DNA of 64,000 nucleotides. It comes from Zymoseptoria tritici IPO323. Taxonomy: Eukaryota > Ascomycota > Dothideomycetes > Mycosphaerellales > Mycosphaerellaceae. Positions 3,959 through 61,716 of this stretch are shown one piece after another. Positions within the stretch are counted from its first letter, which is position 1. Every line of letters begins with the position of its first letter. The translations under genes and the position numbers were made by a program. The notes beneath the pieces are model-generated. The model made no database searches. It worked only from the letters and a program-made list of their open reading frames with translations, and had not been told where the DNA came from. Location of the stretch: positions 2,046,001 to 2,110,000 of the forward strand of contig NC_018210.1 in the NCBI RefSeq assembly GCF_000219625.1, in the 5' to 3' direction.

Positions 3959-4526
3959 AAGCCTGTTGGACACATGGAGTGGAACATATCCGAACGTTGA
4001 TCAGTGGCGGTCTTGCGGAGGAGTGACGATTCAGCGATGAGAGATCGCGAGCGAGCATGCAAGTCGGAAGTGCAGCGATCACATGGTCTGGGATGTTTGA
4101 ATGTATGAGTATCAAAGCAGATATTGCTATTTCTATGAGGTCGGAAGGGGTCTTCAGCAGTCTACAAAGGTTCAAAGCTGACGATCTGGCTGCGTCTTCC
4201 TTCCTGGTGACTCACAAGATTGATGTAAGCTGACTGCATGAGACTTTCCTCCAGTACCTTCGTCGCGGCGACACTTGTCGGTGTCGAACGGAAACAACAT
4301 GCAGAGAACGCAAGTCCAGAATCTGTCGTGCTTGCCCGCCTCGCCTTGAAGATTCGAGTGGCGGCCAGCTTCGGAACGTCTTTATGGTTTAGTCGCCCGC
4401 GAGGACCGAGCCGACACCTAAAAATGTGCAACAGCACTGCACTACGATGTTCCCAAGAATAATTCCACCGCCTTCAGCAGGTCGAGATAATCGCCCAGCG
4501 GCGGAGTCTCGCTCTGGCACCTCGAA
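3959..4526. other. intergenic, no gene seen
   Basis: It separates the HEI10-like gene from the TPR-SET gene on the same strand. Short open frames occur on both strands but none carries a recognisable motif. Confidence 0.45.
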
Positions 4527-6569
4527 ATGGCGTCCGCCGAGAATAGAAATGTCATTCACATGACCCAAGAGGTGCGATGGACGTCGATAACGCATGTATC
4601 TATTCATCACTGCTGATGTTTTGAAGGAAAGCGATCGCATGAGAGAGACTGTGCAGAACAGACTGCGAAAATGTCAAGAACTGAAGGGCCAAGCACGGGA
4701 GAAGAGGGACCGGAAAGATGCCATCAGTTTTGCGACACAGTCTTCTCTCATGGCAGATATGGCAGGCCAGATTGAACCTGGCATGTCCGTGAGCTCCCGA
4801 CCTGACGCTATGGTTGCCTTGGCCGTTGGCAATCCTTTCCCGCCCAGCACGACCAAGCTGGATGATCTGAAGCCGATGTTAATCTCGGAGCTGCAGATCG
4901 ACACGCATCATCAAGGTCGAGTGCTGGATGTCAAGCGGTGTGCTGCTGTCGTCGAGCTCGTAGCTTACTCGTGGACCATTGTGGAAGACAAGGCAGGTGA
5001 TGTCGAGCGGATGGAAGTCTACCTGCATAAATTCAAGCGAGGCGAAGAAGCCCTGGACTGCGGGCCGAACTTTCGAATCAAGGAGCCTTATTTCACCATC
5101 AACGAGCAAGGAGAACCCACAATTCGAATACATCATCCGTCAGATCTCGTTCGTCTTGATACGGAACCTGTGCCGAAGACTGCTCAGAAGTGCAAAGATC
5201 TGGGCAATGCCGCGCTCAAGCGGAAGGAGTACTTCGATTCCATCCGACGATACACGCAAGGACTGGAGCTGTGCGGGAAGGACGGTGGGGAGGACATTCG
5301 ACATGACATCTACCGAAATCGAGCGCATGTCAACCTCTTGCTGAATCGTTTCGACGAGGCTAAAGCGGACGGACTGGCATCGGTGACTGGTGGTGGAGAT
5401 GAGAAGAGTCGACTTCTCGACAGCAAAGCCCAATATCGAGCTGGATGTGCTGCCTACAGTCTGGGGCAATTCGAGGATGCGCAGCGATCGTTCAAGGCTG
5501 CGAAGGAACTGGCGCCGGAAGACAAGGATACGAACACGTTCTTGCGTAATATCGAGGCCAGGCTCCGCGAGCAAGTTTCGGGAGACTACAACTTTACCAA
5601 AATCAGGCTGAAGCTTTCGAAAGCCCGGCCTCGGGTCGATGCGGCCACCTTCGTTGGGAATGTTGATGTCCAAGACAGTCCTCTTGGTGGTCGTGGAGTG
5701 TTTGCTACGAAGGAGATCAGGGCCGGGGAGCTCATACTTTGCGAGAAGGCGTTCTGCGTCGCATGGGGCCACGAGGAGGAGTCATGGACCGCTATGACTT
5801 ACGATGCGAGAGACGACAGGATCAGAGCGTATCCTGCCGGGCTGACCAAGGTAATCGTACAGAAGCTTCTGAACAACCCGTCGCAGATTGAGAAGGTCAT
5901 GGATCTGTTCGGTGACTGGAGGAGCATCGGAAAGGAGGTGCTGATTGGGGAGGATGGTCCGGTAGTGGTGAGTTCTGATGGGCTGCCTGCCTGCTTGCCG
6001 TGATGCTTTGCTGACCTCGGAGACAGGAAGCCTTTCAAGTTCACGACGTGGTTTGCAGGAACGCATTCGGCCCTGGTGCGGTCATCGCTGGCGAGGCCGA
6101 GAACATTAGGAAGGCTAGCACGGGACTCTGGCTGATGGCTGCATATATTAACCACTCGTGTTTGCCGAATGCGGAGAAGAGCTTCCTCGGCGATTTGATG
6201 GTGGTCAGAGCAACGAGGAACATTACGGCCGGAAGCGAGATCACACACAGTTACGACTCCTCGTCGGATTACGACGCACGACAGGAGGCGTTGATGAAGA
6301 CTTGGGGTTTCCGCTGCCGCTGCGAACTGTGTAAAGCGGACGGTGGTGATGCTACCGAGGTGAGAAAGAAGAGGAGGAACTTGGAACAGCAGGCTCTTGC
6401 GGTGGTGGCGAAGGAGCATCCAAGCAGTGCGAGACGGACGACAGTATTGAAGGTGGAGCGTTTGGCGAAGTTGATCAACGAGACCTATGATGATGAAAGA
6501 TACAAGGACCTTCCGCGGATGGCTCTCGCGCAGATCGAGGCATGGCTGGGTCAAGCGGTAAGGCGGTGA
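4527..6569 (+). CDS. TPR and SET domain protein (putative lysine methyltransferase)
   Basis: I prefer a three-exon model: 4527..4571 (MASAENRNVIHMTQE), 4627..5967, 6027..6569. The first intron (GTGCGA...AAG) is inferred; without it translation could begin at ATG 4594. TPR-like helices lie around residues 200-340 (KCKDLGNAALKRKEYFDSIR, AQYRAGCAAYSLGQFEDA). The SET domain begins at SPLGGRGVFATKEIRAGELI and, after the second intron, has the signature NHSCLPNAE, then THSYDSS and a post-SET cysteine cluster GFRCRCELC. Proteins with this order resemble fungal SMYD-like methyltransferases without a MYND finger; substrate unknown. The ending QIEAWLGQAVRR is short: relatives usually continue with more helical repeats, so a further 3' intron (a donor-like GTAAGG lies at the end) or a truncation is possible. 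Confidence 0.8.
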
Positions 6570-6978
6570 GTGCGAAGAGCTATTTGGACTGAAATGCGCT
6601 GGACACATCCTAGCGGCGAAGCTATTTTCATCGATGAATACAAACAAAAAGCATCACCTGGTCAACAATTTTTCACTGCCTGTTACGAAGTGATGTGGTT
6701 TCACCGGTGCCTCAGGCCTCTGCTGAGTCACCTATCGATAAGCTGAAGCTACCCTTCTAGCTTTCACGTTCACAGACATTCATAGATTCGTACAACTACA
6801 AGTCTATTCATCAAATCAGTCCCTTTACCCTCTACCGTGTGACACTGCCCGGCTCAAACAGGGTCAATGACGCCACACCGAAGATGCGGACCAGCGGTGC
6901 GAGGCAACAGAGAGAGACAAACATCGACAGGTCGGGATCGTGTCGCAAAATCGATTCAAGATGCCAATTTACAGACTC
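6570..6978. other. intergenic between convergent genes
   Basis: It holds the 3' ends of the TPR-SET gene (plus strand) and the arrestin-like gene (minus strand). No coding or repeat signal was seen. Confidence 0.45.
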
Positions 6979-8151
6979 TTAGCCATAGTTTGGCGGCAAT
7001 GAGCTCGGGTTGACACGGGCATCCTGGTAGGATGGCAGATTTTCGTCCACAGATTCAAGCTCAGGCCCTCCTGGACGCGGGCCCAGCGTCGTTGAATATT
7101 CTTGGTCAAAGTTGATGCTCTCATGGCCGATTTTCATCTTCATCTTGATTCGCAAGCAGTATCTTCGTGAGAGCATGCTGTGCTTGAAAGAGCTAGGCCA
7201 GCCATAGATCGCATCCACCTCGAGGTTCACGCTGTGCTCATTCGCTTTCGAGAGCTGCAGCGGCAGCAATGTCTTGCTGACCAGCCTTTGGAGACTCCGA
7301 CGATCACTCCGCTCGTACGGACCTTTGATCCGCTTGTCCGTCTTACACCAGGTGTAGGCGACGAGATCGGCGCGGAAGGATGTCAGAGATACTTCGGGAA
7401 GACTATCACCGTGGATGCTGATTGAGAAGCGCGGTCTGTAGCCGGGGAAGACACGCTCCATGTTGCTGCAGTGCATCTGAAGGGCTGTCGTTTGTGAAGA
7501 TGTAAAAACAGCTCTGAGCTTCTCCTGCGGTTTTGAAGAGCGCTTGCTCTGCGGGAGCAAGGCTCGGCTATCGATCGAGACTTTCTGTGTGATCATGGTA
7601 CCCTCGGCATCGACGCTGCCTTCTGGTCGCGGGAGATTATACTCAATCTCAGGCTGGCTGTTGTGTTCGGGAATGACCGTTTTGATGTCAATGCCAGGCA
7701 CCTCCAGCTTCACCCCCACTCGGTACACCGCATCCAAGCTGACGCTGTCTGGAAATTCGGAGAAGTAATAGCTGAACGTCGGCGGTATAGCCTCGCCTGA
7801 GACGGAGGAAGGAAACGTGATGCGAAAAGGGAACTCCCGACAGTCGCCGGCTTCGGCTTTGAATGTGCCTTCGAAGACTGGGAAGGCGACGAGAAATAAG
7901 AGGCATCCATGCTCAACCGGCATATCTCGTTCCTGCTTTACGATGATCTTGATCTTTGAACGCAATGTGACTTCAATCTTGATCGGCGCAAAAAGAGTCG
8001 CGGCCGGCGCGGGCGATCGGAAGAGGCTGGTCTGTGGCGAATATGTAAGAGTGATCTTACCGGTGATGGCGTCTCTAGGACCAAAGTGTGGGCGAGTTTC
8101 ATCATCGATGAGTATCTTTGCGATCAGGATTCCTAGCTTTGCGGTTGACAT
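6979..8151 (-). CDS. arrestin-like (ART/alpha-arrestin) trafficking adaptor
   Basis: Intronless, 390 residues from ATG at 8151 (MSTAKLGILIAKILIDDE). The frame stays open upstream for 63 codons, but that leader is low-complexity and the chosen ATG starts the beta-strand pattern of an arrestin N-domain. The N-half (residues about 3-180) has GKITLTYSP, a long loop, FPFRITFP and AVYRVGVKLEVPG. The C-half (about 215-360) has a second beta-rich block. The tail ends LPSYQDARVNPSSLPPNYG, which contains an LPxY and a PPxY motif. In fungi alpha-arrestins bind the WW domains of the Rsp5-type ubiquitin ligase through such motifs and direct endocytosis of plasma-membrane transporters. It is smaller than most ARTs; family call by fold pattern and motifs. 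Confidence 0.72.
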   Translation of the reverse strand: MSTAKLGILIAKILIDDETRPHFGPRDAITGKITLTYSPQTSLFRSPAPAATLFAPIKIEVTLRSKIKIIVKQERDMPVEHGCLLFLVAFPVFEGTFKAEAGDCREFPFRITFPSSVSGEAIPPTFSYYFSEFPDSVSLDAVYRVGVKLEVPGIDIKTVIPEHNSQPEIEYNLPRPEGSVDAEGTMITQKVSIDSRALLPQSKRSSKPQEKLRAVFTSSQTTALQMHCSNMERVFPGYRPRFSISIHGDSLPEVSLTSFRADLVAYTWCKTDKRIKGPYERSDRRSLQRLVSKTLLPLQLSKANEHSVNLEVDAIYGWPSSFKHSMLSRRYCLRIKMKMKIGHESINFDQEYSTTLGPRPGGPELESVDENLPSYQDARVNPSSLPPNYG

Positions 8152-8413: not shown

Positions 8414-9748
8414 TCAAGCTCTCACTTCTGATCCATATCTCAATCTGGCGAGGCGAAAATGCTCAGCCTCGAGCTTTTTCGGCTCCAGATCCTCAAAAGC
8501 CATGCTCCAGACTGCCTGAGCTTCATCTCGCTGCGTCTTCCGTGCAGACTCCAGGCCTGCAGACTGTCAGCTTGCCACGGGACTTTGTTTTGCCTTCACA
8601 CAGAACTCACCAATATGCTGAGCTTGCACAGGGTACAAGGCATATCTAGCATAGCCACGCTCTACTGCGAGCTGGTCAAGCATGAGATCAACCTGCCCGC
8701 TCTTCCGCTCTTGTAGATAGTCCATCATTGGGGGAATGCTTTCCCTTGGGAAGATCAAAGCTTGCGAGCAACAGCCAAAGGACTCTTCGACTACTCCGGG
8801 AGAGGGCGGCAGCAGGGAAGCTTTTCCACATTGATAGAACAGGATCACCAGGCCGGGAATGAGGATTCCGGTAATGGCCAAGAGCGTTCCAACATCTAGA
8901 TATCGCCGCGTCCACTGCCATCTCCGTCGGATTGCCATGCTGGAAAGTGATACGAATAGCGTGATGCCAAAGATGATCGGGTACTCGTGATTCTCTCCAA
9001 TGTTCTTCCCGGCCCAGCCGATCGATCGCTCTTGATTGAAAAGTCGCATGAACAGGTATTGATCAACGGTCGTTGCTGCGATTTTGTCGAGACCGGAAAG
9101 TGCCTGCATCAACCAGCCATTGGCGAGTAGCACGTCATCTTCGAAGACCGCAACATAGCGGGCGTCGGTGTCGAGGCATCTTTGCAGAGCTGTTCTGTAG
9201 TCGTAGACGCCCTTTTCGGCAAACTCTTCCTTCTCCGCGAGGCCTGTGATGTAAGTCTCTTCTTCTGGATCTTTGAATGAATAACCGTCAAAGCGATCGA
9301 CGGCATCATGAAGCCAGGATCTGTTCCAGCTAGGGTGATGACTGGGATCTGGTTCGGCGTTGAGGATGTTGATGTACAGTTCGCTTCTCTCCGGTGTTGT
9401 CAGGCCTTGAAGGATGCTGGCTATGGTGGTCTGTATATCGTCAGTCTATGTAGTGGAGACCTACAGACGACCTCGCACTTCTAAGTAACTCGTCTCCTTC
9501 CTGCCCACCGAGCTAAGCGAAATGCAGAGGCTTCGATTCTTCGCGGCCTCGGCCGTTCGTCCAGCTTGGAAATCGGCGATGAATTGCTGAGTTTCTGCCT
9601 TGCGCAAGAGGCTGTATCGCTGCTCAAAAGCTCTGGTCCTATCGAAGAAGATGCTTCCCGGATCGCGGTAAAAGTGTATCGAGCCGTACAGTACAAGGAT
9701 AAGCAGAAAGATGACGGAGAGTGTGGCCTTGCACAGTAGTAAGATCAT
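8414..9748 (-). CDS. PGAP4-like GPI-glycan glycosyltransferase, membrane protein
   Basis: Three exons on the minus strand, 9748..9479, 9430..8611 and 8556..8414, give 410 residues. An N-terminal signal-anchor (LLLCKATLSVIFLLILVLYG) is followed by a GT-A type domain with the acidic motif VAVFEDDVLLANGW. Two membrane segments (IIFGITLFVSLSSMAI and LLAITGILIPGLVILFY) sit inside the catalytic region, then YPVQAQHIG. Tandem membrane segments inside a GT domain and a QHIG end are hallmarks of the PGAP4/TMEM246 group, Golgi enzymes that modify GPI glycans. The last intron matters: reading straight through gives an early stop at 8567, whereas splicing gives the C-terminus ...AVWSMAFEDLEPKKL, which looks like the family. 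It lies 262 bp upstream of the arrestin-like gene on the same strand. Confidence 0.75.
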
Positions 9749-14739: not shown

Positions 14740-15890
14740 TGAATACCTCAAAATTCCAATTGTTGCACGCAGTGCAATATAAAGTTGTGGGTGGTCAGCA
14801 AAAAACTGGTTTGGCCGCTACTCGCGTCTGATTGGTCGCTCAATTCTGCAAGCGCCTTGGCGGCTTTCCCCGCGGAACGTCGACTTCGTCGCTTCGGCTA
14901 CCTCTCTCTACTTAGATAACTTAGTAACTACTTATCCGATAACAACGATATTAATATAGAGTATACTATACGTTAGTAGAAGTCGGAATATATTATAAAA
15001 TCTAGCTATTTACCTATATAGTAGCTAATATAGCTTAAAACCCCTTAAAAGCCCTAAGAAACAGGCGAATTAGATAGATAGACTATATATAATAGTCGTG
15101 TATAGTCTAGTATATAAGAGCGGACGTATTCTAGCCTCTAGATATATTAACGTTCTACTTAGAATCTTTAGCTATAGTTTAAAGTAATAAAAGCGCTTAG
15201 ACATAGACATATTAAAGTAAGAGTATACTATCTAGATTAGTAGCCGATATTATAAGAGACTAAAGATACGCTATAAAAGCATTAAGTTTATAATAAAAGT
15301 TAATAAACAAGTAAATAAATAGATTAATAAACTAACAAACTAACAAACTAACGGGCTAATAGACTAATAGACTAATAGACTAATAGACTAATAGACTAAT
15401 AGACTAATAGACTAATAAACTAATAAACTAATAAACTAACAGACTAATAGACTAATAAACTAATAAACTAAACTAACGGACTACCTTACTACTAAATAAG
15501 TCGTATTAAAATATTTAATAGAACTAGTATAGCTAAAGTAAAAAATAAGATGTAGTATAAAACGCTAAAATAAAAATGTCTCGACCGGACGATTTATTAG
15601 GCACTTTCCTAAAAGTACGCAATGCCTAACAAAGATCGACCGGCCGGGGCATTACCACCTCTTACTTAAAGAAGCTGCACAACCCTGCTTCCGCATAGCG
15701 GTTCCCTGAATACCAAACAGAGCCTCTTATATTAAACCTAATCGAGACTAGGCTATAAGCGGGGTGAAGGGGTCAGCCAGCGAGTAATAAGCCGAGAAAT
15801 TTTGCCCGTATATATACCCTTAATCTTTTAGCCCGGAGTAGCCGAGTAGTTAACGCGCTACCCACAACTTTGCACTGCGTGCAGCCTATT
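14740..15890. mobile_element. AT-rich, RIP-like decayed repeat block
   Basis: From about 14890 the sequence turns AT-rich and full of TA steps, the look of a repeat worked over by RIP; no open frame survives. Its two sides carry matching inverted sequences: TGCACGCAGTGCAA...AAGTTGTGGGT near 14764-14793, and ACCCACAACTTTGCACTGCG near 15859-15882. This suggests terminal inverted repeats of a dead element. A second, smaller inverted repeat lies at 15577-15650 around CGATTTATTAGGCA / TGCCTAACAAAGATCG. The element type is not identifiable. Confidence 0.5.
15320..15480. repeat. 8-bp minisatellite (AGACTAAT and variants)
   Basis: About 20 tandem copies of an 8-bp unit, most often AGACTAAT, with AAACTAAC and AAACTAAT variants at the edges. 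It sits inside the AT-rich block. Confidence 0.9.
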
Positions 15891-16939: not shown

Positions 16940-19462
16940 CTAAGGGTAGTAGAGTTTTGGAGGCTCGGATCGTGGCAATAGAGTCGGAGTTAAGAGCCCT
17001 GCGTGAGGAGCTGAGAATGGTGTATTTGGTGTTGTTGGAGGTGCGCGAGAAGGTAGTGTAGCTGGTGTGTTGGTCAGCGCAGTAAGGATATCAGCCTCTG
17101 AAGAGATTGAGTGCCATATTAGTCGACAGGGCTTGCAAAGCGGATACCTGATGCTACAGCATAAGCAATAACACCACGCCTTCTTCACCGCGCGGTTGAG
17201 CTTTATGCTTGTGGAAGCCCAGCGGCAAAGGAAGCACTTCTTGTTGTTTGGTAAGGAGCGGATGTTGTAAGTGAGGCCAGCAATAAGGCGAAAGGTCACC
17301 GGAAGATGCTCACCCTTCTTAAATTGGTGCCTCCTTCCATGCCTTAATAGCTGACCAAAGCGGTTACCAACCATAAATGTGCCCGTCTCTGCATTGCGGT
17401 GTTCTCCGGCTTCTGGTGTATATAGCGCCTGTTTATAGAGAACCTCTTGTCTGCCGTCCAGGACGAGCTCCGATGCGAGGCAGATTCGGAAGTCGCGTTG
17501 TTAAGTAAGGAGTAGCACGGTAACGCCGGTAGCCTTATAGAAGTCTCTGCAAAGGATAAAGGCGTTAATAACCGCTGCATCAAGCAGGAAGTAAAAGAGG
17601 GCATGCTATAGCTTGTTAGCCTTGTGCTAAGTCGAGCAGTAGCTTCTCAACTGGTCGTGAATGTCGACACCGCCTATGTAGTCGTTGTAGTAAGCGGCCA
17701 CGAGAGGCACTAGCTTGTGCTCTCGAGCCTCTTGCCAATGTGGTCGCACGTGCTCTCGAATGAAGGCGTTGACCGGCCGTGGCTTCCTTCTGAGTCGATT
17801 AACGCGCTCGTCGATAGTGTATCCAGTCGTGAGAAACTGCACAAGCTGCCGGTCTTGCCAGAGCACCGCCGAGACGTTGTAAAGTGGTCGGTAAAGGATT
17901 AAATCGAAGGGAAAGTTGGTAGTTTTGCGAGCGAGCTTTACGAGCTTAGTCACCCCCTTCTTAGTGCGTTTAAACTCAGCTCCTTGCCAAGGCCATAACT
18001 TCGAGTTGTTTCTGATAGTGCCTGTCGCGGCGATACCGTACGCACGTAATACAGCGTAGAGCGGTACATTGCTGAACAGATTATCTATGTATATATAGAA
18101 GAACTTGCCTTGCGCGAGAGCCACACGTAGTGTATGCAAAATGAGGCATACCACTGCTTTTGAGCGATCCGCTAGCTCGGAAGTCAAATTCACAGAATCG
18201 TCCGGATTAGGAAGGAGCGGAGGTGGGGGTAGAAGGGTCGCTGCTGCGGGAGCGGCCGGTGCGGCGACGACCTCATTTCTCGTCGAATTATCCTTCTTCT
18301 TCCTCTTAACCACCACCTTCTTAGCTGCCTTCTGGGCCTTAGCAATGGTCACCTCACGCGGCCGGACCACACCAGCAATCTCTACGCCGAGATCCTCATG
18401 CCCCAGCTTCTTGTTCGGAGAGAAATACGACTAACCGAGCAGGTAGCCGCGCTCGCAGAGGGCTAGGATGTAGTATCCTATAGGTGTCGGTTTGCTACGC
18501 ATGTTCACGACGTAGAAGGAGCGTCCGGTGAATCTAATCAAGACCTCATCCAGACTAACTGCCGTGCCAGGTGTAACATACTCCATAAACTTCTTCCGCA
18601 GATAATCAGACAGCCACCTTACCCACGCCTACGGCGGCAAGCCCTTACCGGACGGCGTCGACGAAGGATCCTCGAGATGCAGAGCCGCCTTGATCTGCTG
18701 GAAGCGATAACTTGACATACTACTCTCCCTAACAACAGCATGCTCTGGCCACCAAGTGTCGAACTTCCAGAAGTCCTTCTTATCGGCCATTTGGATAGCT
18801 GACATGTATATGATTAGGCCACACTATACCTTTATCTTAGCAGCTGTGACCGGCTTGAAGGCATTGCCATAAACACGAGTCTGGCCAGTCTCATTCCACT
18901 TTGGCTTGGAAGCAGCATAAAGGTTAGTGCATGTGGCCATTCGCTCGTAAACTGACTAATCAAAGAACGCACTAAAGAACGCCTTTGGAATGTCCTCATC
19001 ATCACCACCGACTACTGCTACAGGCTTCACAACGCGCTCGTGTGCCTCACCAAGCAGCGGCTCGAATCGACTACTACGAGGCTCTGTATCCACCGGCTCG
19101 CAGAGGCCATGATCCTTCTCGTCCACAACGATATTTCCACCTCCTTCCGGCTCCTTAAGAGGCACTCGCTCTGGCCGTTCTTCAACTTCCACACCACCAC
19201 CAGCCTCATCAAACTCGTCCTCGAATACACCCTCAAACGCCTCTTCGAATGCCTCCTCATCCGACGACTCAGCCTCGTCGCTAGAGCTGCCCTCATTAGG
19301 GTCATAATACACTATGTCGTCTATTAGAAGAGCTGGAAGGTCAGGTAACCATGCAATTGTTGGGGGTAATTGATAAGAGATAAGAGAAGGTGTTTGAGGG
19401 CGGCAATCGACGATTTGGACCAAAAGAGGTGTATACAACAGCAGGAGAGGTGAGGGCAACAC
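16940..19462 (-). pseudogene. piggyBac-type transposase, RIP-inactivated
   Basis: One minus-strand reading frame runs from about 19462 to 16940, broken only by point stops. An acidic N-terminal region (SSSDEAESSDEEAFEEAF) leads into a DDE_Tnp_1_7 domain with VSLDEVLIRFTGRS (first Asp), FYIYIDNLFSNVPLYAVL (second Asp), an ATGTIRNNS motif and YNDYIGGVDIHDQLRSY (third Asp region). It ends in a cysteine-rich zinc region (CFLCRW, CYCLCCSIRYPLCKPC) typical of piggyBac C-termini. The stops I see (after CST, after KANKL, after LLLT, after GYLLG) fit CAG, TGG or CAA changed to TAG/TAA, as RIP does. The catalytic aspartates are still present. Terminal repeats and a TTAA duplication were not located. 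Confidence 0.85.
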
Positions 19463-19977: not shown

Positions 19978-21720
19978 CAGATGCTGATCCTGTCGTATCC
20001 AGAGCCGAAGAGAAGTAGGCTGGCTGAGAAAGCTGAAGAGGCCAGAAAGATGACTGACAAAACCGGACAAGCCACTTCGTTGATCGGTCACCCATCTCAC
20101 CCTACGCGAGAGTACGTCTACGGCGATGGATTTGAAGAGCACGAGGTTCGACCAGGGTCGTCCAACAAGCGGCGCCACAGCACCACCGTGGAAGAGGATG
20201 ATTCTGTCAAGAAGCGACGCGTGGGACAAGGTGAACCGGTAAGTGGATGAGGAGCATGGACAACTTGTCACGATCTGACGATGCAGCAGCGTGGTATCTT
20301 GACGATGCAGCAGCGTGGTGAGAAGGATGAAGGACACCGTTCCCATTCATCGGCGAGCAAGCGCCGTGATGAGAGCGCCGCGACACATGCCTTGACGAGG
20401 ATGAACCGCCTGCTGCCCTTAAGCCGACCAGACCGTACCGCAATACTTTGTCTGAAGTAGCTGAAGCACGCAAGTCTTCATTGGACATCTCCTTCGACGA
20501 CATTGCCAGCAACAAGTCTACGAAGCAACATCGCGGTAGATTCTTTGGTCAGCCTGCCTCGGTCGTCGATGACCTAGAGGCATCTTCACATCGCAAGACG
20601 AGCAAGCCAGACCGCATCTCTCGAGACAAGGAGGATCCCAACTGCGGCAGCTTCCTGACTTCTGCTAGCAAGACGAACACATCAAACCGTGGCAGCTTCT
20701 TCGACGTCGGAGACATCGGATCGACATCCGCTCACCGAACACATCAAACCGTGGCAGCTTCTTCGACGTCGGAGACATCGGATCGACATCCGCTCACAAG
20801 ACCAGCAGACCACAATACAGCACTTCCTTTAACAAGTCGGATCAGCTGGAGAATTCTAACCGCCGCAGCTTCCACCTCGACGGAGCACCAACCTCTGCTC
20901 GCAAGACCAGCAACACCTCCCTGGACAAGCCTGACAAACCGAACCGCGGCAGCTTCTTTTCGACAAGCGAGACTGTCATGGACAGCTATCTTCAGGATCT
21001 TGAAGATGTCGAAACAGCGTCCGCATCGAGGAAGAGCAACAAGTCCCGCCGCAATACCTCACTCGGCAAGGATTAAGCATCGTCTGCGTACAAGACGAGC
21101 AAGCCGGACCAGGACTCCTTTCTCGAGGAGGATCGATCGCCGTACGCTCGCAGCATTACTGCACTGGACAAGGGAGGCGAAGACGTACCCTCGAGCTATA
21201 CTTTGGGCAAGCGCTCGTCTTATGTACCACCTCAGCCCGCTGGACAGGAGATTGGAGAGATCGTCCGTGACAGGTCAACCAAGTATGTAAACCTTGCCGT
21301 CCGAGGAGCACAGCCAGCTGTCACACGTCTCACAGGAAGCAGCGTGCTGTTGAGTACGATCCCGAGGAGTTCGTCCATGAGCAGCCCGTTCAAGGTCACA
21401 GATGCCACCTTCCGGGATGGTCGTCTTGACACTCCATTCGACCGCGAGGAGGATGACGACAAGGAACCAGAGCTACGCGGATTGGCGGACCGTCTCGCCA
21501 AGATCGAGAAGCTGCTCACTCAGATTGCCGCAAGCTTGTCGAAGAAGCAGTCCAAGGGCGCATCAGAGCACACCGTCGACTTCTCGACCGAGCTACCTCC
21601 CAAGAAGACTTCCCGTCGCGGACGCGAGGCTGACCAGGCTGTCCAAAAAGCCAAGATCTACTATATCGAGCCCGAGGACATCTCGACCAAGAAGGCTCCC
21701 GGTCTGATTGCAGACGAAGT
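19978..21720 (+). pseudogene. Ser/Lys-rich repeat protein, multiply broken
   Basis: Reading frames here share a motif family, K-T-S-[KNR]-P-[DN]-[RQ]-x-S-F and N-R-G-S-F-F, and together would make one hydrophilic protein. The first exon-like part ends GQGEP at a GTAAGT donor near 20239. A frame slip near 20385 separates HSSASKRRDES from DEDEPPAALKPTRPY. A 62-bp tandem duplication (20674-20735 and 20736-20797) shifts the frame again. A TAA at 21074 (in the place of a likely CAA) interrupts GKD and ASSAYKTSKP. The last 170 residues include RLAKIEKLLTQIAASLSKK, an amphipathic helix. From about 21720 the frame runs into a repeat. No function is recognised. Confidence 0.6.
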
Positions 21721-21734
21721 CTTGCTAACTTATT

Positions 21735-21862
21735 TGTACGACTATTTGGCATGTATGCTAACTTACCTACACGGCTACCTGCATGCTTATTTAGTATATA
21801 TGCTAACTTACCTGCACGGCTACCTGTACGGCTACCTGTACGGCTACCTGCACGGCTAATAG
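21735..21862 (+). repeat. 12-bp tandem repeat, TE-like junction
   Basis: Units of the form GGCTACCTGTAC/GGCTACCTGCAC are repeated, and a longer block (TATGCTAACTTACCTGCACG) occurs twice. The pseudogene upstream fuses directly into it and gains a meaningless YLHGYLYGYL tail before a TAA. Related words occur at 10.35-10.83 kb. Confidence 0.75.
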
Positions 21863-22549
21863 TATGTCCTACTAACTTGCCCGGATCGTTACCTGCACGG
21901 CTATTAGGCACGTCTGGTCGGTTGCAGACCATCTACTAGTGCTATGCTACTAAGCATAACGAGGGGGCAGTCTTCGCATTGCTAACGGCATCTGAACGAG
22001 GACTTCGCTGTCTACTAATGTCTAGAGAGGAAACGCGGGTGCTGCTAGGGCAGAAGTAGCTATACACTCGCCCTTCTTGAACAGGTGTCGGTATGTCCTC
22101 GAGGCTCGACTTAGCACGGACCCGCCGGTGTTACCCCTAGAAGTCGGACAGAAGACACGGATCGGAACGGCATAGTTTGCGCCAACCCTCCTTCTTCTAG
22201 CTAAACATCCTAGACCAAGCTACCTAGCGTAAAATGCTAAGGGAGGTTCGGCAACGTAGATAAGAAAAGTGGCCGGATGTCCTCGTAGCTACAGAGAAAA
22301 TTATATCTATACAGCCCGCCTTTCGCTTTACACATTACATTTACAAGCCTGTAAGATGCCCTTTCTAACTCCTTTCTCGCGCGACGAAATATCGTATTAA
22401 TGTTCTTCTATAGCTAGCGTAGTCCGACTCTAGGATAGCGATTGCCGCGCTGTTGCCTAAGTCCCCGGAACGTCGGCGACAAGTTCCGCTTCATAGTCGA
22501 TAACTCGATGTCTATACCCTCCGAGTCGATAGGCTAGGTCGACTTAGAG
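21863..22549. other. non-coding, probably decayed repeat
   Basis: No gene-like frame. The words TACCTGCACGGCTA and CTACTAA continue into the left part, then the sequence becomes unique up to the palindrome array. Confidence 0.35.
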
Positions 22550-25500
22550 CATGGCGTAAATCCTTTTCAGTCGCTATATAATCTCGTTCATTTAGTGTAA
22601 ATGAAGCACATCTAAACGACTCTTGCGTAGAAAAGTATACTTAGAAGTTCTCTGTCCCGGAAAAGCTAAGTATAAGAGCAACGCGTACGCCGCTTACATA
22701 ATCCAGATCATCTGCCTCGGATGAACGAGATTTAAGGGCGAATGAAAGACAATGTCGTCGTCGCCGGGACTAATATACAAGTCTCGAGCATGGGGTAAAT
22801 CCTTTTCAGTCGTTATATAATCTAGTTCATTTGGGGTAAATGAAGCACATTTAGATAACTCTTCCGTGAAAAAGCCTACTGTCGTAGTTGGAGAAGTTTT
22901 TATCTAGGACAAGCTAGATATTGTTGCAACGCGCACGCCGCTTACATAATCCTTTTCATTTGCCTCGGATGAACGGGATTTGAGGGCGAATGAAAGACAT
23001 TGTCGTCGTCGCCCGGAGTAACATACAAGTCTCGAGTAAGGCGTTGATCCTTTTCAGTCGTTACATAATCTAGTTCATTCAGGGCAGATGAAGCACATTT
23101 GATCGACTCTTGCGTAGAAAAGCACGCCGTCCTAGTTAGAGAAGTTTTCCAACCCTAATAAGCCGAGTCCTGTAGCAACGCACACGCCGCTTACATAATC
23201 CTTTTCATTTGCCTTAGATGAACAAGATTTGCGGGCGAATGAAAGACAATTCCCGCCTACCGCCGAACTTTCACAAAACAGCGAAACTTTCGAAATGCAT
23301 TTCAGTCGACCTTGGAAGCTCTTCATTTAGGTCAAATGAATTGGTATTTACCTTGTCTCTCTGCTAGGAGGTCGTCGTTGTCTCGGTAGGAGTATTCTAT
23401 ACGTATCTTCTCGAGGAGACGACCTGCGACCCCGCCGCTTACATAATCTCTTTCATCCGAGGCAAATGAACTTGTTTTGCAATCGAGTGAAAGAGATTGT
23501 CGATGGTGTCGCCGCTACCAAATTTCGATATCCTGGTGGATTATAGGATCTTCGAAATGTCTTTCAGTCGGTATATATTGTCTTTCATTTAGGGCAAATG
23601 AACAAGAATATGCATAATTCCTTTACTAAACAGTCGTCGTCGCGTTGGAGGGGTTATTTTATGTTCAGCTTGCCAGGGGAGGAAGTCCCACCCCTGGCGC
23701 TTACATAATCTCTTTCATCTGCCTCGAATGAACTGCTTCTTATGCCGACTAAAAGAGATTGTCGATGCTGTCGCTACCAAATTTCGACATCCTGGTGGAT
23801 TATAGGATCTTCGAAATGTCTTTCAGTCGGTATATATTGTCTTTCATTTAGGGCAAATGAACAAGAATATGCATAATCCCTTTACTAAACAGTCGTCGTC
23901 GCGTTGGTGGGGGTATTTTATGTTCAGCTTGCTAGGGGAGGAAGTCTCACCCCTGGCGCTTACATAATCTCTTTCATTTGCCTCGAATGAACTGCTTCTT
24001 ATGCCGACTGAAAGACATTTAAATGTTGTTGCTAGAATAAATTTATATGCTACAGGGTCTTCGAAATGTCTTTTAGTCGGTGTATAATCTGCTTCATTTG
24101 GGTCAAATGAAAGAGATCTGTACAAGAGTAAATTGCATCTTCCTGTCGTTGGCCTAACAAATTCAAAACATGTTTTCCCGGCTTATAGCAAAATTTGTAA
24201 CGAGTTTCTCTAGTGAATGTCTTTCATTCTACGCTAATGAACAGCATTCTAAGATGTCTGTAGTCGAAACGGCGATGTACAGATAGGGGTTAACTAGGCC
24301 TTTAGACGCGCGAGATCGATTTATTTTTCGACGGATTGTACTTTATTTGCCCTGAATGAAGCCGTTTCCGCTGCACAGAGGCATCGGAATGTCGTATGTC
24401 GTTTTGGAAGGTGCGGACCTCTGTTCTTGGCAGGTACGGCTGTCTAGCTTGTCAAATGGGGCGGCGTCTAGACGTGCTAAGCCGTGTTCAGAAGCCCTAG
24501 ACAGTTGCTCCTTCCCTGCTCCACGCCTTCCCAATTTACGTACAACGTCGTTGCGGCCTCTCTTTGTACATAATGTAGTTCATTCGGGTTAAATGAACTC
24601 GTATTCGTCGTAACTTGAAGGGATTTTCCCTCGGATGTCATACTGTTACTAGAATCTTTCCCTTGCGACTGCTAGCTATTCGAGTTAGCAAATGTCGTTC
24701 ATTTGGTCTAAATGAACTACAATATATAGCGACTGAAAAGGATTTGTAAGCACCCTACCGTCCTATCGACCCGGGTACTTAGAACAGCGAGTTTTGCGAT
24801 AAACGTAGACGATCCTTCTAAATCTCGTTCATTTGGGCTAAATGAACCAGATTAGCAAGCGAATGAAAAGGATATCTAAACACCTCGCTGTCGAGCGTTA
24901 AAAATTAATCACGCGACAATAGAAGCGTTCCGCTACGGAGCGACCCTTAAAAGCCGTTCATTTGGTCTAAATGAATGAGATTAGTAAGCGAATGAAAAGG
25001 ATCTACACGTCCCTGTCGCTGTCGTATATATATTCACTTAACGAAGCAGACTCTGTCGGCGACTTGTTCTCGATCTTTGAAAGCAGTTCATTCGACCCAA
25101 ATGAAAGAGTATATAATGCGACTAAAAGAGATTTCGCCTTGCTCGTAGATTCCCCCCTTTCTACCCGCACATATGTTCGGGGCAGCAACGGCAGGCATAT
25201 CCGTTTCATTGCCTATCGAATCTCGTTCATTTAGGCTAAATGAAAGACATTAGTAACCGAATGAACTAGATATCGCTGTCGATACTCGTTTGTAGCTATA
25301 GGACTTCTAGGGAAGCGACGGTAAGCATATCCGTTTCATTGCCTATAGAATCTCGTTCATTTAGGGCAAATGAAAGACATTAGTAAGCGAATGAAACGGA
25401 TTTACTGCGGCCTTGTCGTCACTTGTCTATATTGCAGGTAGCGACGACGGTAGGGATATCCATTTCAATGTCGACTAGAAGCAGTTCATTTGCCCTGAAT

Positions 25501-27745
25501 GAAAGAGATTAGTAAGCAGTTGAAAGACATTGTTACACCGCTGTCGTTATATCTTCGAAATTTCCCTCGAGACCTAGGCAATACACTATACGACGCGGAG
25601 ACTGTTTTATGTACTTCATTCAGACCAAATGAAGACGAATATCCAAAGACTAAAACAGATTTAGACATGCCTACTGCCGGCATAAATCGATTAGGGCTGG
25701 CATAGCGAAATTTGACTTTTATACCCCGCCAAACCTAATTTGCACTTCATCTGGGCAGAATGCAACGCAATATCGCGCGACTGAAAAGGATTTGCACGGC
25801 AATTTAACATACACCTCTGGAAGCGACGACAACACCGCTACGCTCGTATACTCTTCGGTTTCTCTTTCATTCGGGGCAAATGAAATAGTATATACACCGA
25901 CTGAAAAGCATATCGTGCGAATGAAAAGGATTTGTACTGCAATTTAACACTCATCTCTACAAGCGGCGGCAACACTGCTATATACGTCTGCTCCTCGGTT
26001 TCTCTTTCATTCGGGGCAAATGAAAGAGTATATACACCGACTGAAAAGCATATCGCACGAATGAAAAGGATTTGTACTGCAATACAACATTCGCTTCTAG
26101 AAGCAGCGACAACACCGCTACGTACGTTTACTCTTCGTTTTCTCTTTCATTCTAGGCAAATGAAATCGAATGCCGGCAGACTGAAACACATTTCCATGTC
26201 GTCGCTACCGTCCTTGCCTGCTCTTTCGCGATACTACAACACGGCGACAGCAGCGTAATCTGCACTTCTTTTTGTTATAATGTGCTTCATTTGCCCTAAA
26301 TGAAAGAGAATATTAATCGGTTGAACGAGATTTGTCCATCGCCGTCGCTGCCCCGAGGAGTACCCTAAAAAACGGCGACGGTAATTACGACGACATTGCC
26401 TACTATGTATTCTCGTTCATTTGATCTAAATGAACGACAATATATTAAGACTGAAACGGATTTCCGACCTTGCTGCCGTCGGGCTAATATATGCTCTAAG
26501 CGGCGACAGCGAGGTTTAACACTACCCTATCTCTTAGATTGTATTTCATTTGCCCTAAATGAAAAGCTTTATATATAGAATGAAATACAAAACCTTGCTT
26601 CTGTTGCCGCCCCTTTTTACATCCTAAGACAAATATCGACAGCGACAGTAAGCAAATCTCTTCCAGTCGTGTAGGAATCTGTTTCATTTAGGGCAAATGA
26701 ACTAGAATACAGTAAGACTGAAATGCATTTCGACTAGTAACTGTCGTTCCTTGCGAGATTGTACAAGTTGGCGACGGCAAGGTCTCGAAGGTTTAGACCT
26801 TTAAAATGTCTTTCATTTGCCCTAAATGAACGAGATCTTAATACGAATGAAATGCATTTCTATCGTTGTCGCCCTTAAGGTAGGATGTTTACAAAAAAGC
26901 CGGCTATAGACAGAAATCCTTTTCAGTCGGTAGCTAAAGTATTTCATTTGCCCTAAATGAACGAGATCTTAATACGAATGAAATGCATTTCTATCGTTGT
27001 CGCCCTTAAGGTAGGATGTTTACAAAAAAGCCGGCTATAGACAGAAATCCTTTTCAGTCGGTAGCTAAAGTATTTCATTTGCCCTAAATGAACGAGATCT
27101 TAATACGAATGAAATGCATTTCCATCGCTGTCGCCCTTAAAGTAGGATGTTTACAAAAAAGCCGGCTATAGACGGAAATCCTTTTCAGTCGGTAGCTAAA
27201 GTATTTCATTTGCCCTGAATGAACGAGATCTTAATACAAATGAAACGCATTTCCATCGTTGTCGCCCTCTAGACGGGTTAAGTAGAGAGCCACACTTGTA
27301 GACGAAGATGTCTTTCATTCGCTAGCAAAAGCCCTTCATTTGCCCTGAATGAACGAGATATTAACACGAATGAAACGCATTTCCATCGTTGTCGCCCTCT
27401 AGACAAGTTGAGTAGAGAGCCACACTTATAGACGAAGATCTCTTTCATTCGCTAGCAGAAACACTTCATTTGCCCTGAATGAACGAGAAATTAACACGAG
27501 TGAACTGCATTTCCATCGCTGTTGCCCTCTAGACAAACATCCACTTTGAGACGAAAATCTCTTTCATTCGCTAGTAAAAGCTTTTCATTTGCCCTTAATG
27601 AAACAGATCTACATACGACTGAAAAGCATTTCTTACGTCGTCGCCTTCTAGACAAATATCCACCTATATATGAAGATCTCTTTCATTCGCTAGCAAAAGC
27701 CCTTCATTTGCCCTTAATGAAAGAGATCTGCATACGACTGAAAAG
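22550..27745. repeat. tandem array of about 40 palindromic units, ~130 bp period
   Basis: A near-palindromic core, typified by TTCATTTGCCCTAAATGAA, recurs about 40 times (for example 22587, 22827, 23583, 24696, 25355, 26285, 26810, 26940, 27070, 27707). Spacing is mostly 117-142 bp, with one double gap after 24345. Most cores are flanked by a second pair of arms, such as ATCCTTTTCAGTCG on the left and CGACTGAAAAGGAT on the right, so each unit can fold as a 70-80 nt nested hairpin. Between units lies a second dyad (GCCGTCGC...GCGACGGT). The left part (22550-23290) repeats as about 240-bp dimers; units at 26810-27200 are nearly identical, so expansion there was recent. No frame stays open. Function unknown. 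Confidence 0.9.
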
Positions 27746-27783
27746 ATTGTTCTAATACCTAGTGGCAGCGTCCACCGGCAGCG

Positions 27784-28074
27784 CCGACCGTCTATCTCGC
27801 GGGCGATTCGACTATAGCGGCGAAAGGAAACAAGTCAGATATAGGAACATTTGCTCCAAGATGACGGAACCAGGCTGACGAGTTTTCTGCAACTTTGCAG
27901 CGACGGCGCCACCGCAGAATGGGGCGCTCATCTTTCTACGCACATTAGTCTTGCCGTGGTAAACCATGCGCTAGGCGGCCGTTCAGCCCGCAGCTTCACG
28001 CGAGAGGGATGATTCGACGCTATTGCCGCACTGGTCACAAAAGAGGACATTGTCGTTATCGAGTTTGGTCACAA
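27784..28074 (+). pseudogene. rhamnogalacturonan acetylesterase (CE12), 5' fragment
   Basis: The fragment carries the SGNH-hydrolase block I with the catalytic serine (APTVYLAGDSTIAAKG), then WGAHLSTHISLAVVNHALGG, the RSARSFTREG block and FDAIAALVTKEDIVVIEFGH. These are the signatures of secreted rhamnogalacturonan acetylesterases, which deacetylate pectin. The signal peptide is missing: the palindrome array ends about 40 bp upstream. A TGA at 27862, a frame change after it and a second TGA after REG (in place of a likely CGA) kill the frame. The fragment ends at a good donor (GTATGT at 28075). The rest of the gene lies 2.7 kb downstream. Confidence 0.85.
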
Positions 28075-28129
28075 GTATGTAGCGTTCTGTGATTGGACCA
28101 CGTGTCCTTAACTTTCTAAACCAGATCCG

Positions 28130-28693
28130 GGTAGTCGAGTAGAGCCGCAGACCTACGATGATGAGCTGTGTACGGAGCAGGCCGCAAAATCGGTACAATA
28201 GCAGCAATCGTGTAGCAGCTATGCTCCATAATTAGATGCCTACGGTCTTCATTGTCGCTCAAGTCGTCCAGGCGCTGGCGAAGGCCATCCAGAAAGGCAA
28301 CATCGCTAAACGTAACCGCCAGCACGCCACTAGAAGAGCTTCTTTAATGGCGTTAGCAGTGTCCTCGAATGTCTGGCTGTTCGAGGCTAGTAGAAGAGAT
28401 CTACGGTAGGAAGCCAGTCGTTTAACGTTTCGGCATCTTGATACATTCCTCCGCTTGGGTGATGTCGGAATTCTGTGCACCCAGGCTGGCGACGAACTTA
28501 AACTCTTCGAGGGCTAGTTCGCCTTGTGTGTACCGATCGCGGAATGTTCTGGCCCTTTGTCTCCTCACAGACCAGGTCAATCACCTCGCCTGGCCAGATG
28601 GCATAGCGAATACTGCTAAAACAAGTGACTCTAGTACGTAGAGTCCCTCGTCCGTCACGTCAAGGGTAGCCGGCCCAAGTGCCATCTGCGACC
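28130..28693 (-). pseudogene. decayed continuation of the antisense unknown gene
   Basis: Coding-like patches on the minus strand switch frame and contain stops: ALEEFKFVASLGAQNSDITQ with AEECIKMPKR near 28440-28530, then LAVTFSDVAFLDGLRQRLDD and NEDRRHLIMEHS near 28220-28330. They continue the direction of the unknown gene upstream and may be its C-terminal part or a second, dead gene of the same insert. No function recognised. Confidence 0.4.
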
Positions 28694-30145
28694 TCACAAA
28701 GCGTCAAGTTCCCGGTGTCCCACATTATACCGTCGATTGCTATTAAGAGCAGTACGACGAGGCGAGGACAAAGTAGCATCTAGGACGGCCGATTTCCAAT
28801 GAGACTGGGAGAGACGGCGGCGATGTGGCCAGCGATTTCTTTGGTCGAAACGTCTCGAGGGAGGTCGACGGAAACAAGCTGATCGACGACGAATTCCACT
28901 AAAAGGAGGGTTGCGCATGAGTGCCCTGCTTGTCAATGGTACTTGTTCCGTTGCAATGGCATAGGCAGAATGGTTGTCGGATGGGACAGACCAGGCAGCA
29001 ACGACAGCAGTGTCCAACCACTTCCTGATGAGTCTGGTAGCTATTTTCGCGAGCTTGTCCGCGTTCTCTCCCTGACTTGACGTTTTGGAAGGGAGCTCGG
29101 GACCTACCTGAGGCATGCCTGCGCACACAAATGTCCATTCCGAGGCGAACGAGTAATTGCCTGCAGACAGCTGGCAGAAAGACTCGTCGTTATTATGACC
29201 AAGGATTGGCATCAAGCCACGGCACAGACATACGAGCCTCAGGGTGTAAGTGTCGTACACGGTATGGTGCCTGCCGTACGTGACCGGCCGGTTGGTGATG
29301 AGGAGCTTGCACAGATGAGCAAGTTCGGAGAGCTGCATGGCGTCGAGCCCATAAGCGAGGCTTTGGACGATGAGTTGAGTCAAGATCGGGATGAGCTTCT
29401 CGAGTAGATCATGATAGGACGCGAGGATGTCCTTTCCCCCAACGGCGAGGATGTCCTTCTCCCCAACGGGCTGATTCTCCCGGCCGGCTCCATTCTCGTC
29501 TAAGATGAGGGTGGCGTCCGTTGGAGTAGTGGAAGAGGCGACAGGTGCAATGAAGTCCAGACCAGTGCTCGATTTGTAGTCAGTCTCGAACTTGGAGCGG
29601 AAAGCGTCCGACAGGCAATGCCATTCGAAGCAGCCATATGAGGTACGGAAATAGGCCGCCTCGATGGCGAACCAGGCCTTCCGATGCGGGCATGTATTGG
29701 AGTGCTCTCCATGGAAAGTGGAATCCTCTCCACACACCGCTTTGTGGTCCTCATTACCCGCCTTTCCGTTGGTCGCCAGGTATTTGAAGACTTGTTGCCC
29801 AGAGATGAGCATACCAAGGGGTAGATCTGTGGGAGAATCCACAGAGTATGTGTTGAAGAATATGGCTGTGGTGTAGATCTCCGGGACAAGACAGGCAAGA
29901 ACTTTCGGTAGCGTCTCGCGAGTGAACAGAAGAGTGTCATGCCCGTTCATCAGACAAAATGCGGCGAATTCCAACTCCGGATATTTTTCATGTGCCACTC
30001 TAAAGCGCAGAGCATTGAGTGCCGGCGACGGCACAGTGTCGGTATCCTCGTTGCGCGTGACCGTGGTAGTTGCGGTCTCCTCATTTGCGATGGCTGTCGA
30101 TGTCCAATGGACAGTCTCCGATGACTGCTCCTCGAGAGCTGCCAT
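28694..30145 (-). CDS. unrecognised protein lying antisense inside the split esterase gene
   Basis: From ATG 30145 (MAALEEQSSETVHWTSTAIA) a 483-codon frame runs to 28694. Recognisable local features: a hydrophobic core FAAFCLMNGHDTLLFTRETL, a His/Cys-rich patch (HGEHSNTCPHRKAWFAIEA, SYGCFEWHCLSDAF), a twice-repeated GEKDILAVGGKDILA, and LIPILTQLIVQSLAYGLDAM. The frame is open further upstream, but there it is read from an 11-bp minisatellite and is not credible. Near 28905 a better-looking continuation lies in another frame (VEFVVDQLVSVDLPRDVSTK, HIAAVSPSLIGN), so the last 70 residues are probably out of frame through an indel or missed intron. No family recognised. It may be a lineage-specific gene carried in by the insertion. 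Confidence 0.5.
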   Translation of the reverse strand: MAALEEQSSETVHWTSTAIANEETATTTVTRNEDTDTVPSPALNALRFRVAHEKYPELEFAAFCLMNGHDTLLFTRETLPKVLACLVPEIYTTAIFFNTYSVDSPTDLPLGMLISGQQVFKYLATNGKAGNEDHKAVCGEDSTFHGEHSNTCPHRKAWFAIEAAYFRTSYGCFEWHCLSDAFRSKFETDYKSSTGLDFIAPVASSTTPTDATLILDENGAGRENQPVGEKDILAVGGKDILASYHDLLEKLIPILTQLIVQSLAYGLDAMQLSELAHLCKLLITNRPVTYGRHHTVYDTYTLRLVCLCRGLMPILGHNNDESFCQLSAGNYSFASEWTFVCAGMPQVGPELPSKTSSQGENADKLAKIATRLIRKWLDTAVVAAWSVPSDNHSAYAIATEQVPLTSRALMRNPPFSGIRRRSACFRRPPSRRFDQRNRWPHRRRLSQSHWKSAVLDATLSSPRRTALNSNRRYNVGHRELDAL

Positions 30146-30426: not shown

Positions 30427-30536
30427 ATGGATGAAGGGTGGATGAAGGGTGGATGAAGGGTGGATGAAGGGTGGATGAAAAAGGGTGGATGAAGGGTGGA
30501 TGAAGGGTGGATGAAGGGTGGATGAAGGGTGGATGG
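30427..30536. repeat. 11-bp minisatellite (GGGTGGATGAA)
   Basis: About nine copies of GGGTGGATGAA with one AA insertion near 30479, followed by two GGATGGAGT variants. It sits upstream of the antisense unknown gene, i.e. in its leader or promoter. Confidence 0.95.
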
Positions 30537-58690: not shown

Positions 58691-59082
58691 CCTAACATTA
58701 CTATTAGAAAGAAGTCTGCACAACGATTAGGAGCTATTATATAGCCTTATATGCACATCACATGCGGACTTAAATTATTACGTTTACCACCTTAACAAGT
58801 GGTCTAGGACGTATATATCTAGGGATCTATCGACCGGATTACCCTTTTGAAGCCAAATTCACTTTACTTTTTGCGCTAAACTGAAATTGGCAGCTACTAA
58901 AGACCTAAACAGCTATTACATGCCGAACTACGCGTACTTCTGAACCCGTAATGCATTCCTTAGCACTGGTCTGTGCTTATTCTCAGAGCTTATATCTTTT
59001 CTGTTTGTACTTCCACTTTCTCTTCTTTTCTTCAACTACCTTATTTTACATTAGTAGAGGTGTTAACATTAGCACTATTACG

Positions 59083-61437: not shown

Positions 61438-61457
61438 GATCGTTTAGTATAACATAA

Positions 61458-61711: not shown

Positions 61712-61716
61712 CAAGG

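Follow-up and report, generated by a model that had tools for sequence, protein, structure and literature searches.

Dyad-symmetric, helically phased satellite arrays in centromeres of Zymoseptoria tritici

Centromere 9 (Cen9) of Zymoseptoria tritici IPO323 contains a 5.2-kb array of 40 recognisable, dyad-symmetric units whose centers are spaced at distances that differ by about one helical turn. The array, delimited with Tandem Repeats Finder (TRF) and pattern matches, occupies positions 2,068,547-2,073,748 of chromosome 9. These correspond to 22547..27748 (no strand assigned) of the 64,000-nucleotide stretch analyzed here, namely contig NC_018210.1, positions 2,046,001 to 2,110,000 of the forward strand, which we call the window. 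We refer to its repeats as family I. We put at roughly 70% the probability that the array is a satellite of the centromere in which each dyad-symmetric, helically phased unit serves as the seat of a DNA-bound particle; CenH3 nucleosomes, a sequence-specific dimer, or both would fill this role.

Results

Position and anatomy of the Cen9 array

CenH3 was mapped in this fungus by Schotanus et al. using chromatin immunoprecipitation sequencing (ChIP-seq). Table 1 of that study (PMC4589918) places the CenH3-enriched domain of Cen9, to which no strand applies, at chr9:2,067,589-2,076,063 (window 21589..30063), and the array lies wholly inside it. The first-pass annotation of this DNA, made from the letters alone, had reported about 40 recurring palindromic cores, a figure that proved accurate. 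With up to three mismatches allowed, the core pattern matches 63 times in the window, a count in which both strands of one palindrome often score, compared to 0.5 matches expected from shuffles; 40 units were located through their inner palindrome.

Each unit consists of up to four copies of one TTCATT-like half-site, which reads ATSYNNTTCAKTYG. An outer copy is followed by an inner copy 21 bp further inward and then by the mirror images of both, giving a pair on either side of the dyad. The unit with its dyad at 25365 illustrates this order. Its outer half-site ATCCGTTTCATTGC (25329..25342) and inner half-site ATCTCGTTCATTTA (25350..25363, 21 bp after the outer one) are on the plus strand, and the mirrored inner half-site (25367..25380) and mirrored outer half-site (25388..25401, 21 bp beyond the inner one) are on the minus strand. 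The inner TTCATT is intact on each side in 35 of the 40 units. The annotation had also claimed a second pair of arms around every core. The outer TTCA does occur at one exact distance: 43 of 80 arms have it 30 bp from the dyad, whereas the 24 alternative shifts of up to 12 bp yield 2 occurrences in all. Yet only 10 of the 40 units carry all four TTCA sites, with three in 21 units, two in 8 and one in 1. Orientation is fixed for a further motif: all 33 GTCGYC-type matches in the array, overlapping matches being scored separately, point away from the nearest dyad, and 30 of them are 40-52 bp from it. The 7-bp center of the unit is directional (TGCCCTA or its complement), and both directions occur among units.

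Successive dyads in Cen9 are 118-120 bp (10 spacings), 129-132 bp (23) or 138-140 bp (5) apart, with none in between. These classes account for 38 of 39 spacings, close to the 117-142 bp given in the annotation, and the remaining spacing of 237 bp is about two units. Because the dyads are thus about 119, 130 or 140 bp apart, successive units lie on the same face of the helix. Phasing was measured on spacings of 110-145 bp only, which comprise 38 of 39 in Cen9, 16 of 17 in Cen3, 34 of 39 in Cen5, 20 of 20 in Cen2 and 21 of 25 in Cen11; the spacings left out include an off-phase 147. The Cen9 spacings gave R=0.89 at 10.5 bp (n=38). Many Cen9 units are tandem copies, and we therefore grouped the spacers by sequence; with one spacing for each of the 22 groups, R was 0.91 at 10.5 bp (Rayleigh p ~1e-8).

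The tandem copies form blocks, none with an assigned strand. TRF finds 248-bp double units in a left block (22547..23250) and 259-bp double units, about 90% alike, at 23429..24019. TRF and the dyad spacings together define 2.8 copies of a 140-bp unit at 25770..26166 and a right block (26811..27743) of closely alike 131-bp and then 119-bp units, which consists of recent tandem copies.

A diverged copy in Cen3

A search of the genome (39,686,251 bases in 21 contigs) with the whole array by BLAST gave two loci among the matches listed, Cen9 and a diverged copy at 3,348,365-3,350,700 of chromosome 3. The latter is inside the Cen3 domain, given as 3,348,307-3,356,535 in PMC4589918. All 38 distinct sites that match the family I core genome-wide with at most one mismatch are in Cen3 or Cen9. 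The doublet pattern, with at most two mismatches, falls in these two centromeres in 57 of 60 cases, and the other three are isolated two-mismatch sites. With up to two mismatches, the TTCATT core was absent from the ten other centromeres examined.

The two copies align best in inverted orientation, with 65% identity over 1.2 kb. Alignments longer than 700 bp span 57-66% identity, and short stretches reach 90%. Most inner sites are readable despite mismatches at 34-43% of aligned positions. The flanks of the two copies share only short matches; the best of these, of 38 bp (E 4e-4), falls within a 12-bp tandem repeat. The sites of the Cen3 copy show C-to-T changes at CpA, the mark left by repeat-induced point mutation: of 57 TT?A sites, 21 carry T, compared to 6 of 126 in Cen9. 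CpA is also scarcer in both array regions than in the adjoining genic stretches. Elsewhere in the window, positions 54001-62000 are A/T-rich and strongly depleted of CpA, as after repeat-induced point mutation.

The annotation could assign the array to no satellite or transposable element (TE) family, and we likewise found no match, in Rfam or in the published repeat content, which PMC4589918 lists as 0.5% for Cen9 and 0.0% for Cen3; no TE library was searched. With such values in that source, both arrays were evidently not annotated as repeats.

Arrays of like layout in other centromeres

The sequence reading covered all or most of Cen2, 3, 4, 5, 7-14 and 18-21 (n=16; about 60% of Cen8 and Cen18) and small parts of Cen1 and Cen6, with Cen15, 16 and 17 left out. 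Two further families share the layout of family I. Family II, a palindrome of different sequence, has 40 units in Cen5, 15 in 2.2 kb of Cen1 and 9 in 1.5 kb of Cen6. Family III has 21 units in Cen2 and 26 in Cen11, with pattern matches also at Cen8, Cen16 and Cen17. In both families, half-site doublets 21 bp apart are mirrored about the dyad, and units are spaced at 119-140 bp.

Genome-wide, 38 distinct sites are listed for family I, 34 for family II and 45 for family III, after removal of one opposite-strand palindrome duplicate each from family I (39 to 38) and family III (46 to 45). By the domain coordinates of PMC4589918, all 117 are in or close to a CenH3 domain. These domains, which make up 0.54% of the genome, contain 106 of them, and the other 11 are within 5.1 kb of a domain. 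The reversed patterns, used as a control, matched once for family I and not at all for families II and III. Family I is found on 2 of 21 chromosomes, family II on 3 and family III on 5, so no family is present on all or most chromosomes. The profiles of the three families, compared in dyad register, are weakly similar (z 1.9-3.1), and a single weak blastn match joins Cen5 and Cen9; a distant common origin is conceivable from these sequences. Since arrays in Cen3 and Cen9, and in Cen2 and Cen11, are related across chromosomes, satellites have moved or been exchanged between centromeres.

Three more arrays, families IV-VI, are likewise linked to centromeres but do not follow the 130-bp rule. Family IV is a 148-bp tandem array in Cen4 (stretch L044, about 8525-9433) and Cen16 (chromosome 16, 336549-337154); relative to the published domains, 10 of its 14 sites are inside, 2 are near and 2 are at 44 kb from Cen4. 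Family V, with a 153-bp repeat, is in Cen19 (L050, about 3679-5614; 6 of 6 sites). Inverted arms are visible by eye in both. Family VI is in Cen10 (6 of 6 sites). There, at L045 4287-5160, GTCGCAGA recurs on both strands with frequent steps of 10, 11, 19, 22, 31, 41 and 51 bp, close to multiples of the helical turn, and the pattern derived from it occurs six times, in Cen10 only. Cen7 (L046 4250-4990) contains ACCGATTTGGC, which recurs about every 11 bp and has inverted copies as well; a 34-base pattern derived from it occurs twice, in Cen7 only.

A subtelomeric satellite of 160 bp served as a control and had 0 of 8 sites at centromeres. It too has inverted arms (CTACTATTTTT...AAAAATAGTAG; L038, about 6440-8000, at the right end of chromosome 3), and its eight matches are at the ends of chromosomes 3, 5, 12, 13, 17 and 18, 2-18 kb from the chromosome ends. 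Other sequences are also shared between centromeres. Cen12 (L041), Cen8 (L051) and Cen18 (L052) have strong blastn matches in common (about 600 bits), possibly a mobile element or recent exchange; CACGAGCACGA-type repeats are common to Cen13 (L039) and Cen12; and the Cen9 domain and Cen10 share one strong match (229 bits).

Spacing, periodicity and dyad density across centromeres

The Cen5 ladder resembles that of Cen9, with 34 spacings at 119-121 and 129-131 bp and one of these at 134 (R=0.87). The 16 Cen3 spacings fit this ladder less closely, with R=0.72 at 10.5 bp and p 0.007 for 11 spacer groups. Spacings in Cen2 (20) and Cen11 (21) are nearly all 130 bp, with 121, 131 and 140 also present. 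When the spacings of the five centromeres were pooled, the optimum was 10.50 bp (R=0.88, n=129).

A direct lag of 21 bp ranked first among 63 lags in Cen9, Cen3, Cen11, Cen2 and Cen5 (z 4.1-8.3). It also ranked first in the control stretch L031 (z 3.1) and in Cen12 (z 2.4), and we therefore restrict the claim to z above 4. An excess of lags of 116-142 bp is present in the same five centromeres and absent from the 11 others (Cen8 in part) and from 12 control stretches. Lag spectra of whole centromeres, which are noisy, peak near 10 bp in Cen9 (P 26) and at 10.3 in Cen10 (P 14), near 9.3 in Cen2 and Cen11, and at 18.35 in Cen5. Two controls, L038 (P 11) and window 31-41 kb (P 5.5), peak at 10.05. 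Given these off-10 and control peaks, we do not claim helical lag spectra as centromere-specific.

Dyad density, a measure blind to sequence, exceeds that expected from a centromere's own composition in 10 of 16 centromeres (z 3.3-10.3), compared to z 2.2 at most in the 12 control stretches (rank test, p 0.005 for ratios to simulation and 0.013 for raw densities). Pairs of such sequence-blind dyads at spacings of 119, 130 or 140 bp were few per region. In families I and III, A/T content is maximal 4.8-5.9 bp from the dyad. This is the phase expected of a nucleosome dyad, and family II does not show it.

Arm matching and folding

The annotation proposed a special match between the two arms of a unit, as if the fold were kept rather than the sequence. 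The arm pairs it quoted are real, but each is a variant of a single motif found across the array. In Cen9, within-unit pairing was 0.464, compared to 0.506+-0.011 for between-unit shuffles (z -3.8), the reverse of what was proposed, and whole-unit compensation was not in excess in Cen3 (z 0.5), Cen5 (0.9), Cen2 (-1.6) or Cen11 (1.3). The Cen9 deficit is also seen for the outer arms alone (z -2.6) and persists after orienting all units one way (z -2.9). By zone, 3 of 25 tests were nominally positive, namely the outer arms of Cen11 (z 3.7), the outer arms of Cen3 (p 0.038) and the between-arm zone of Cen5 (p 0.036); by eye, the Cen11 signal coincides with a sub-block whose units have a different variant on both arms.

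Units do fold better than shuffles as single strands. Mean z values with RNA and DNA parameters, respectively, were -1.2 and -1.8 in Cen9, -2.1 and -1.6 in Cen11, and -3.3 and -3.0 in Cen5, and z was below -2 (DNA parameters) in 24 of 34 Cen5 units and 18 of 40 Cen9 units. However, mirrored, and hence palindromic, sites alone would give such values. The impression that something more than a decayed repeat has been kept was correct, but what persists is an arrangement of double-stranded sites in fixed positions, not a fold. Likewise, an architecture is common to centromeres of different sequence, but it does not hold between the two arms of a unit. The periodicities of 21 and about 10.5 bp suggest protein-bound duplex DNA, not hairpin RNA.

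Other features of the window

The window also contains two short tandem repeats, one of 8 bp (AATAGACT, window 15318-15471) and one of 11 bp (TGGATGAAGGG, window 30428-30535), the latter within a long reading frame. Upstream of the array is a relic of a piggyBac-like transposase (DDE_Tnp_1_7; window 17558-18988) with several in-frame TAG codons, and further matches to it are on chromosomes 2 and 6.

Discussion

Two-turn doublets, mirror symmetry and whole-turn spacing are the features expected of symmetric particles that bind one face of duplex DNA and contact their neighbors. Most likely, each unit seats a single DNA-bound particle that is twofold symmetric. Adjacent particles would touch or stack, and we propose that, as a consequence, the spacing could change by whole turns only. 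Because the array is inside CenH3 chromatin, the first candidate for the particle is the CenH3 nucleosome, which we favor and which would be positioned by the dyad sequence, while a sequence-specific dimer probably reads the nearly invariant TTCATT pair. Such an array could then supply the kinetochore with a regular CenH3 lattice and so help CenH3 chromatin.

Nucleosomal DNA is 147 bp long, and the loss of 13 bp from each end leaves about 120 bp, the lower unit length in the array. The CenH3 nucleosome is reported to have loose DNA ends of this kind: 13 bp are disordered on either side of the human particle in its crystal structure, and the budding-yeast particle is almost alike (PMC7475651). 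Nucleosome positions that differ by whole helical turns have been reported in yeast (PMC5807854), and satellites are said to phase nucleosomes (PMC8997354).

Several observations weigh against this reading. On placement, some sites lie outside the published CenH3 domains (PMC4589918): at Cen8 the main block of family III, and at Cen6 four sites of family II, are 2.4-5 kb away, and two family IV sites are 44 kb from Cen4. Five of 16 centromeres (Cen12, 13, 14, 20 and 21) have no dyad excess and Cen4 reaches only z 2.3, so such arrays are not required by every centromere. On phasing, off-phase spacings of 134, 136 and 147 bp occur, Cen3 alone fits 9.60 bp (R 0.77) better than 10.5 bp (R 0.72), and the nearly uniform 130-bp spacing of Cen2 and Cen11 carries little information on the ladder. 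The units are also partly tandem duplicates and hence non-independent. Family II lacks the A/T phase of the other two families, and A/T periods fit best at 10.9-11.3, not at 10.5. The decay of the Cen3 copy by C-to-T change at CpA means that upkeep is not strict. Finally, the bases of the inner TTCATT pair are more strictly specified than nucleosome placement by itself would require, and a sequence-specific dimer is likely involved.

In the strongest alternative, the array is bound by a non-histone protein only, as a tetramer or a pair of dimers, and CenH3 follows or merely coexists. A domesticated CENP-B-like transposase would be an example. Near-invariant inner half-sites (TTCATT in 35 of 40 on each side), two-turn doublets in mirrored order and whole-turn spacing would all suit such a protein, and the genome encodes six matches to the CENP-B-type domain HTH_Tnp_Tc5. 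None of the six is tied to the array, however, and families I-III carry different motifs, so one protein of one specificity cannot read all three. A CENP-B box (TTCGNNNNANNCGGG) has no exact match, and with one mismatch there is 1 match in the array and 10 in the window, compared to 14.8 expected by chance. We consider this alternative somewhat unlikely. Two other candidate readers of the sites were set aside. The piggyBac transposase has three loci in the genome and none near the Cen3 array, and a Ste12-like pheromone-response site was considered but dropped because the bases after TGAA vary.

Alternatively, dyads could extrude cruciforms or hairpins that recruit a CenH3 chaperone, a model of structure-coded centromeres already published by Kasinathan and Henikoff (as described in PMC8997354 and PMC9070824). 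The dyad densities, above composition in 10 of 16 centromeres with no control beyond z 2.2, are in keeping with this model, as are the folding values, greatest in Cen5, and the within-unit matching of Cen11 outer arms (z 3.7). We regard it as improbable here, as the five arrays show no whole-unit compensation, with a deficit in Cen9, and cruciform extrusion requires neither a 21-bp half-site repeat nor whole-turn spacing.

Equally improbable, in our judgment, is a neutral satellite that low recombination and unequal exchange have trapped in centromeres, its symmetry and phasing being accidents of a few founders. The blocks found by TRF are clear tandem duplications, the kinship of the Cen2/11 and Cen3/9 arrays demonstrates spread between centromeres, and the dyad-register similarity of the three families (z 1.9-3.1) would permit a distant common origin. 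Yet whole-turn lengths are kept by 22 Cen9 spacer-sequence groups, the spacing and 21-bp doublets are common to three families, and inner sites remain readable despite 34-43% divergence between the Cen9 and Cen3 copies. The palindromic units and the piggyBac relic about 3.6 kb upstream might recall a hairpin non-coding RNA or small-RNA locus, or an array of miniature inverted-repeat transposable element (MITE) or TE ends, but we rejected both as very improbable, the former on 0 Rfam matches at gathering scores in the window and the lack of whole-unit compensation, the latter on the lack of terminal repeats or of shared flanks beyond short matches, with two loci genome-wide among the matches listed and piggyBac matches on chromosomes 9, 2 and 6 but none near the Cen3 array, and with centromere restriction and helical phasing speaking against either.

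A seat for CenH3 nucleosomes, a dimer or both remains our preferred reading of the array. A broader reading is that centromeres in this genome may be written in geometry, not sequence, with satellites that converge on or keep one architecture read by CenH3 chromatin or its loader. In that architecture, half-sites would form doublets with a two-turn offset, the doublets would be mirrored about a dyad, and dyads would fall on a 10.5-bp ladder of 119, 130 and 140 bp. We offer this as a tentative possibility. If it is true, sequence turns over between centromeres while the architecture stays, and a genome described as motif-free would have a centromere grammar. It has long been asked how centromeres are specified when they share no DNA sequence. 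Centromere-restricted dyad satellites of several sequences, spaced by whole turns, allow a geometry rule to be tested directly in a small genome whose centromeres are mapped, and they provide a natural system for separating dyad placement, spacing and sequence.

Z. tritici centromeres were described as each having unique DNA with no discernible common motif, based on BLAST and MEME after repeat masking (PMC4589918). We found no earlier report of these repeats among the matches listed in a search of the open-access literature by title and start of abstract, a search that leaves most subscription journals outside. Dyad-rich centromeres (PMC8997354, PMC9070824) and, in Tribolium, unrelated satellites with a common symmetry (PMC13081366) are already in the published record. 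What is new is an ordered, helically phased and centromere-restricted form of dyad, in several sequence families, in a genome said to be motif-free.

Among known systems, centromeric DNA of the alpha satellite type is also built of tandem units about the size of one centromeric nucleosome, within the CenH3 domain, on some chromosomes. Unlike it, the arrays described here occupy only a few kb per centromere, their units are diverged and belong to several sequence families in one genome, and the units are dyad-symmetric and spaced by whole helical turns. Arrays of CENP-B boxes are similar in that a short site recurs in each satellite unit, but here there is no CENP-B box, a unit has up to four half-sites, and the motif differs by family. 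The budding-yeast point centromere, with its elements CDEI-II-III, is about 120 bp long. Its length, like that of the present unit, is near that of one CenH3 nucleosome, whereas here tens of units are found in an 8.5-kb CenH3 domain. The dyad-symmetric centromeres of Kasinathan and Henikoff (2018), as reported in PMC8997354 and PMC9070824, resemble ours in the enrichment of short dyads. Order at 119, 130 and 140 bp, half-sites repeated at 21 bp, and arms that do not compensate distinguish the arrays described here from those dyads, as far as these two sources describe them. The macro-dyad satellites of Tribolium are comparable in that different satellites obey one symmetry rule across related genomes, but according to PMC13081366 that symmetry spans kilobases of inverted sub-arrays, whereas in Z. 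tritici it is contained within one unit of about 130 bp.

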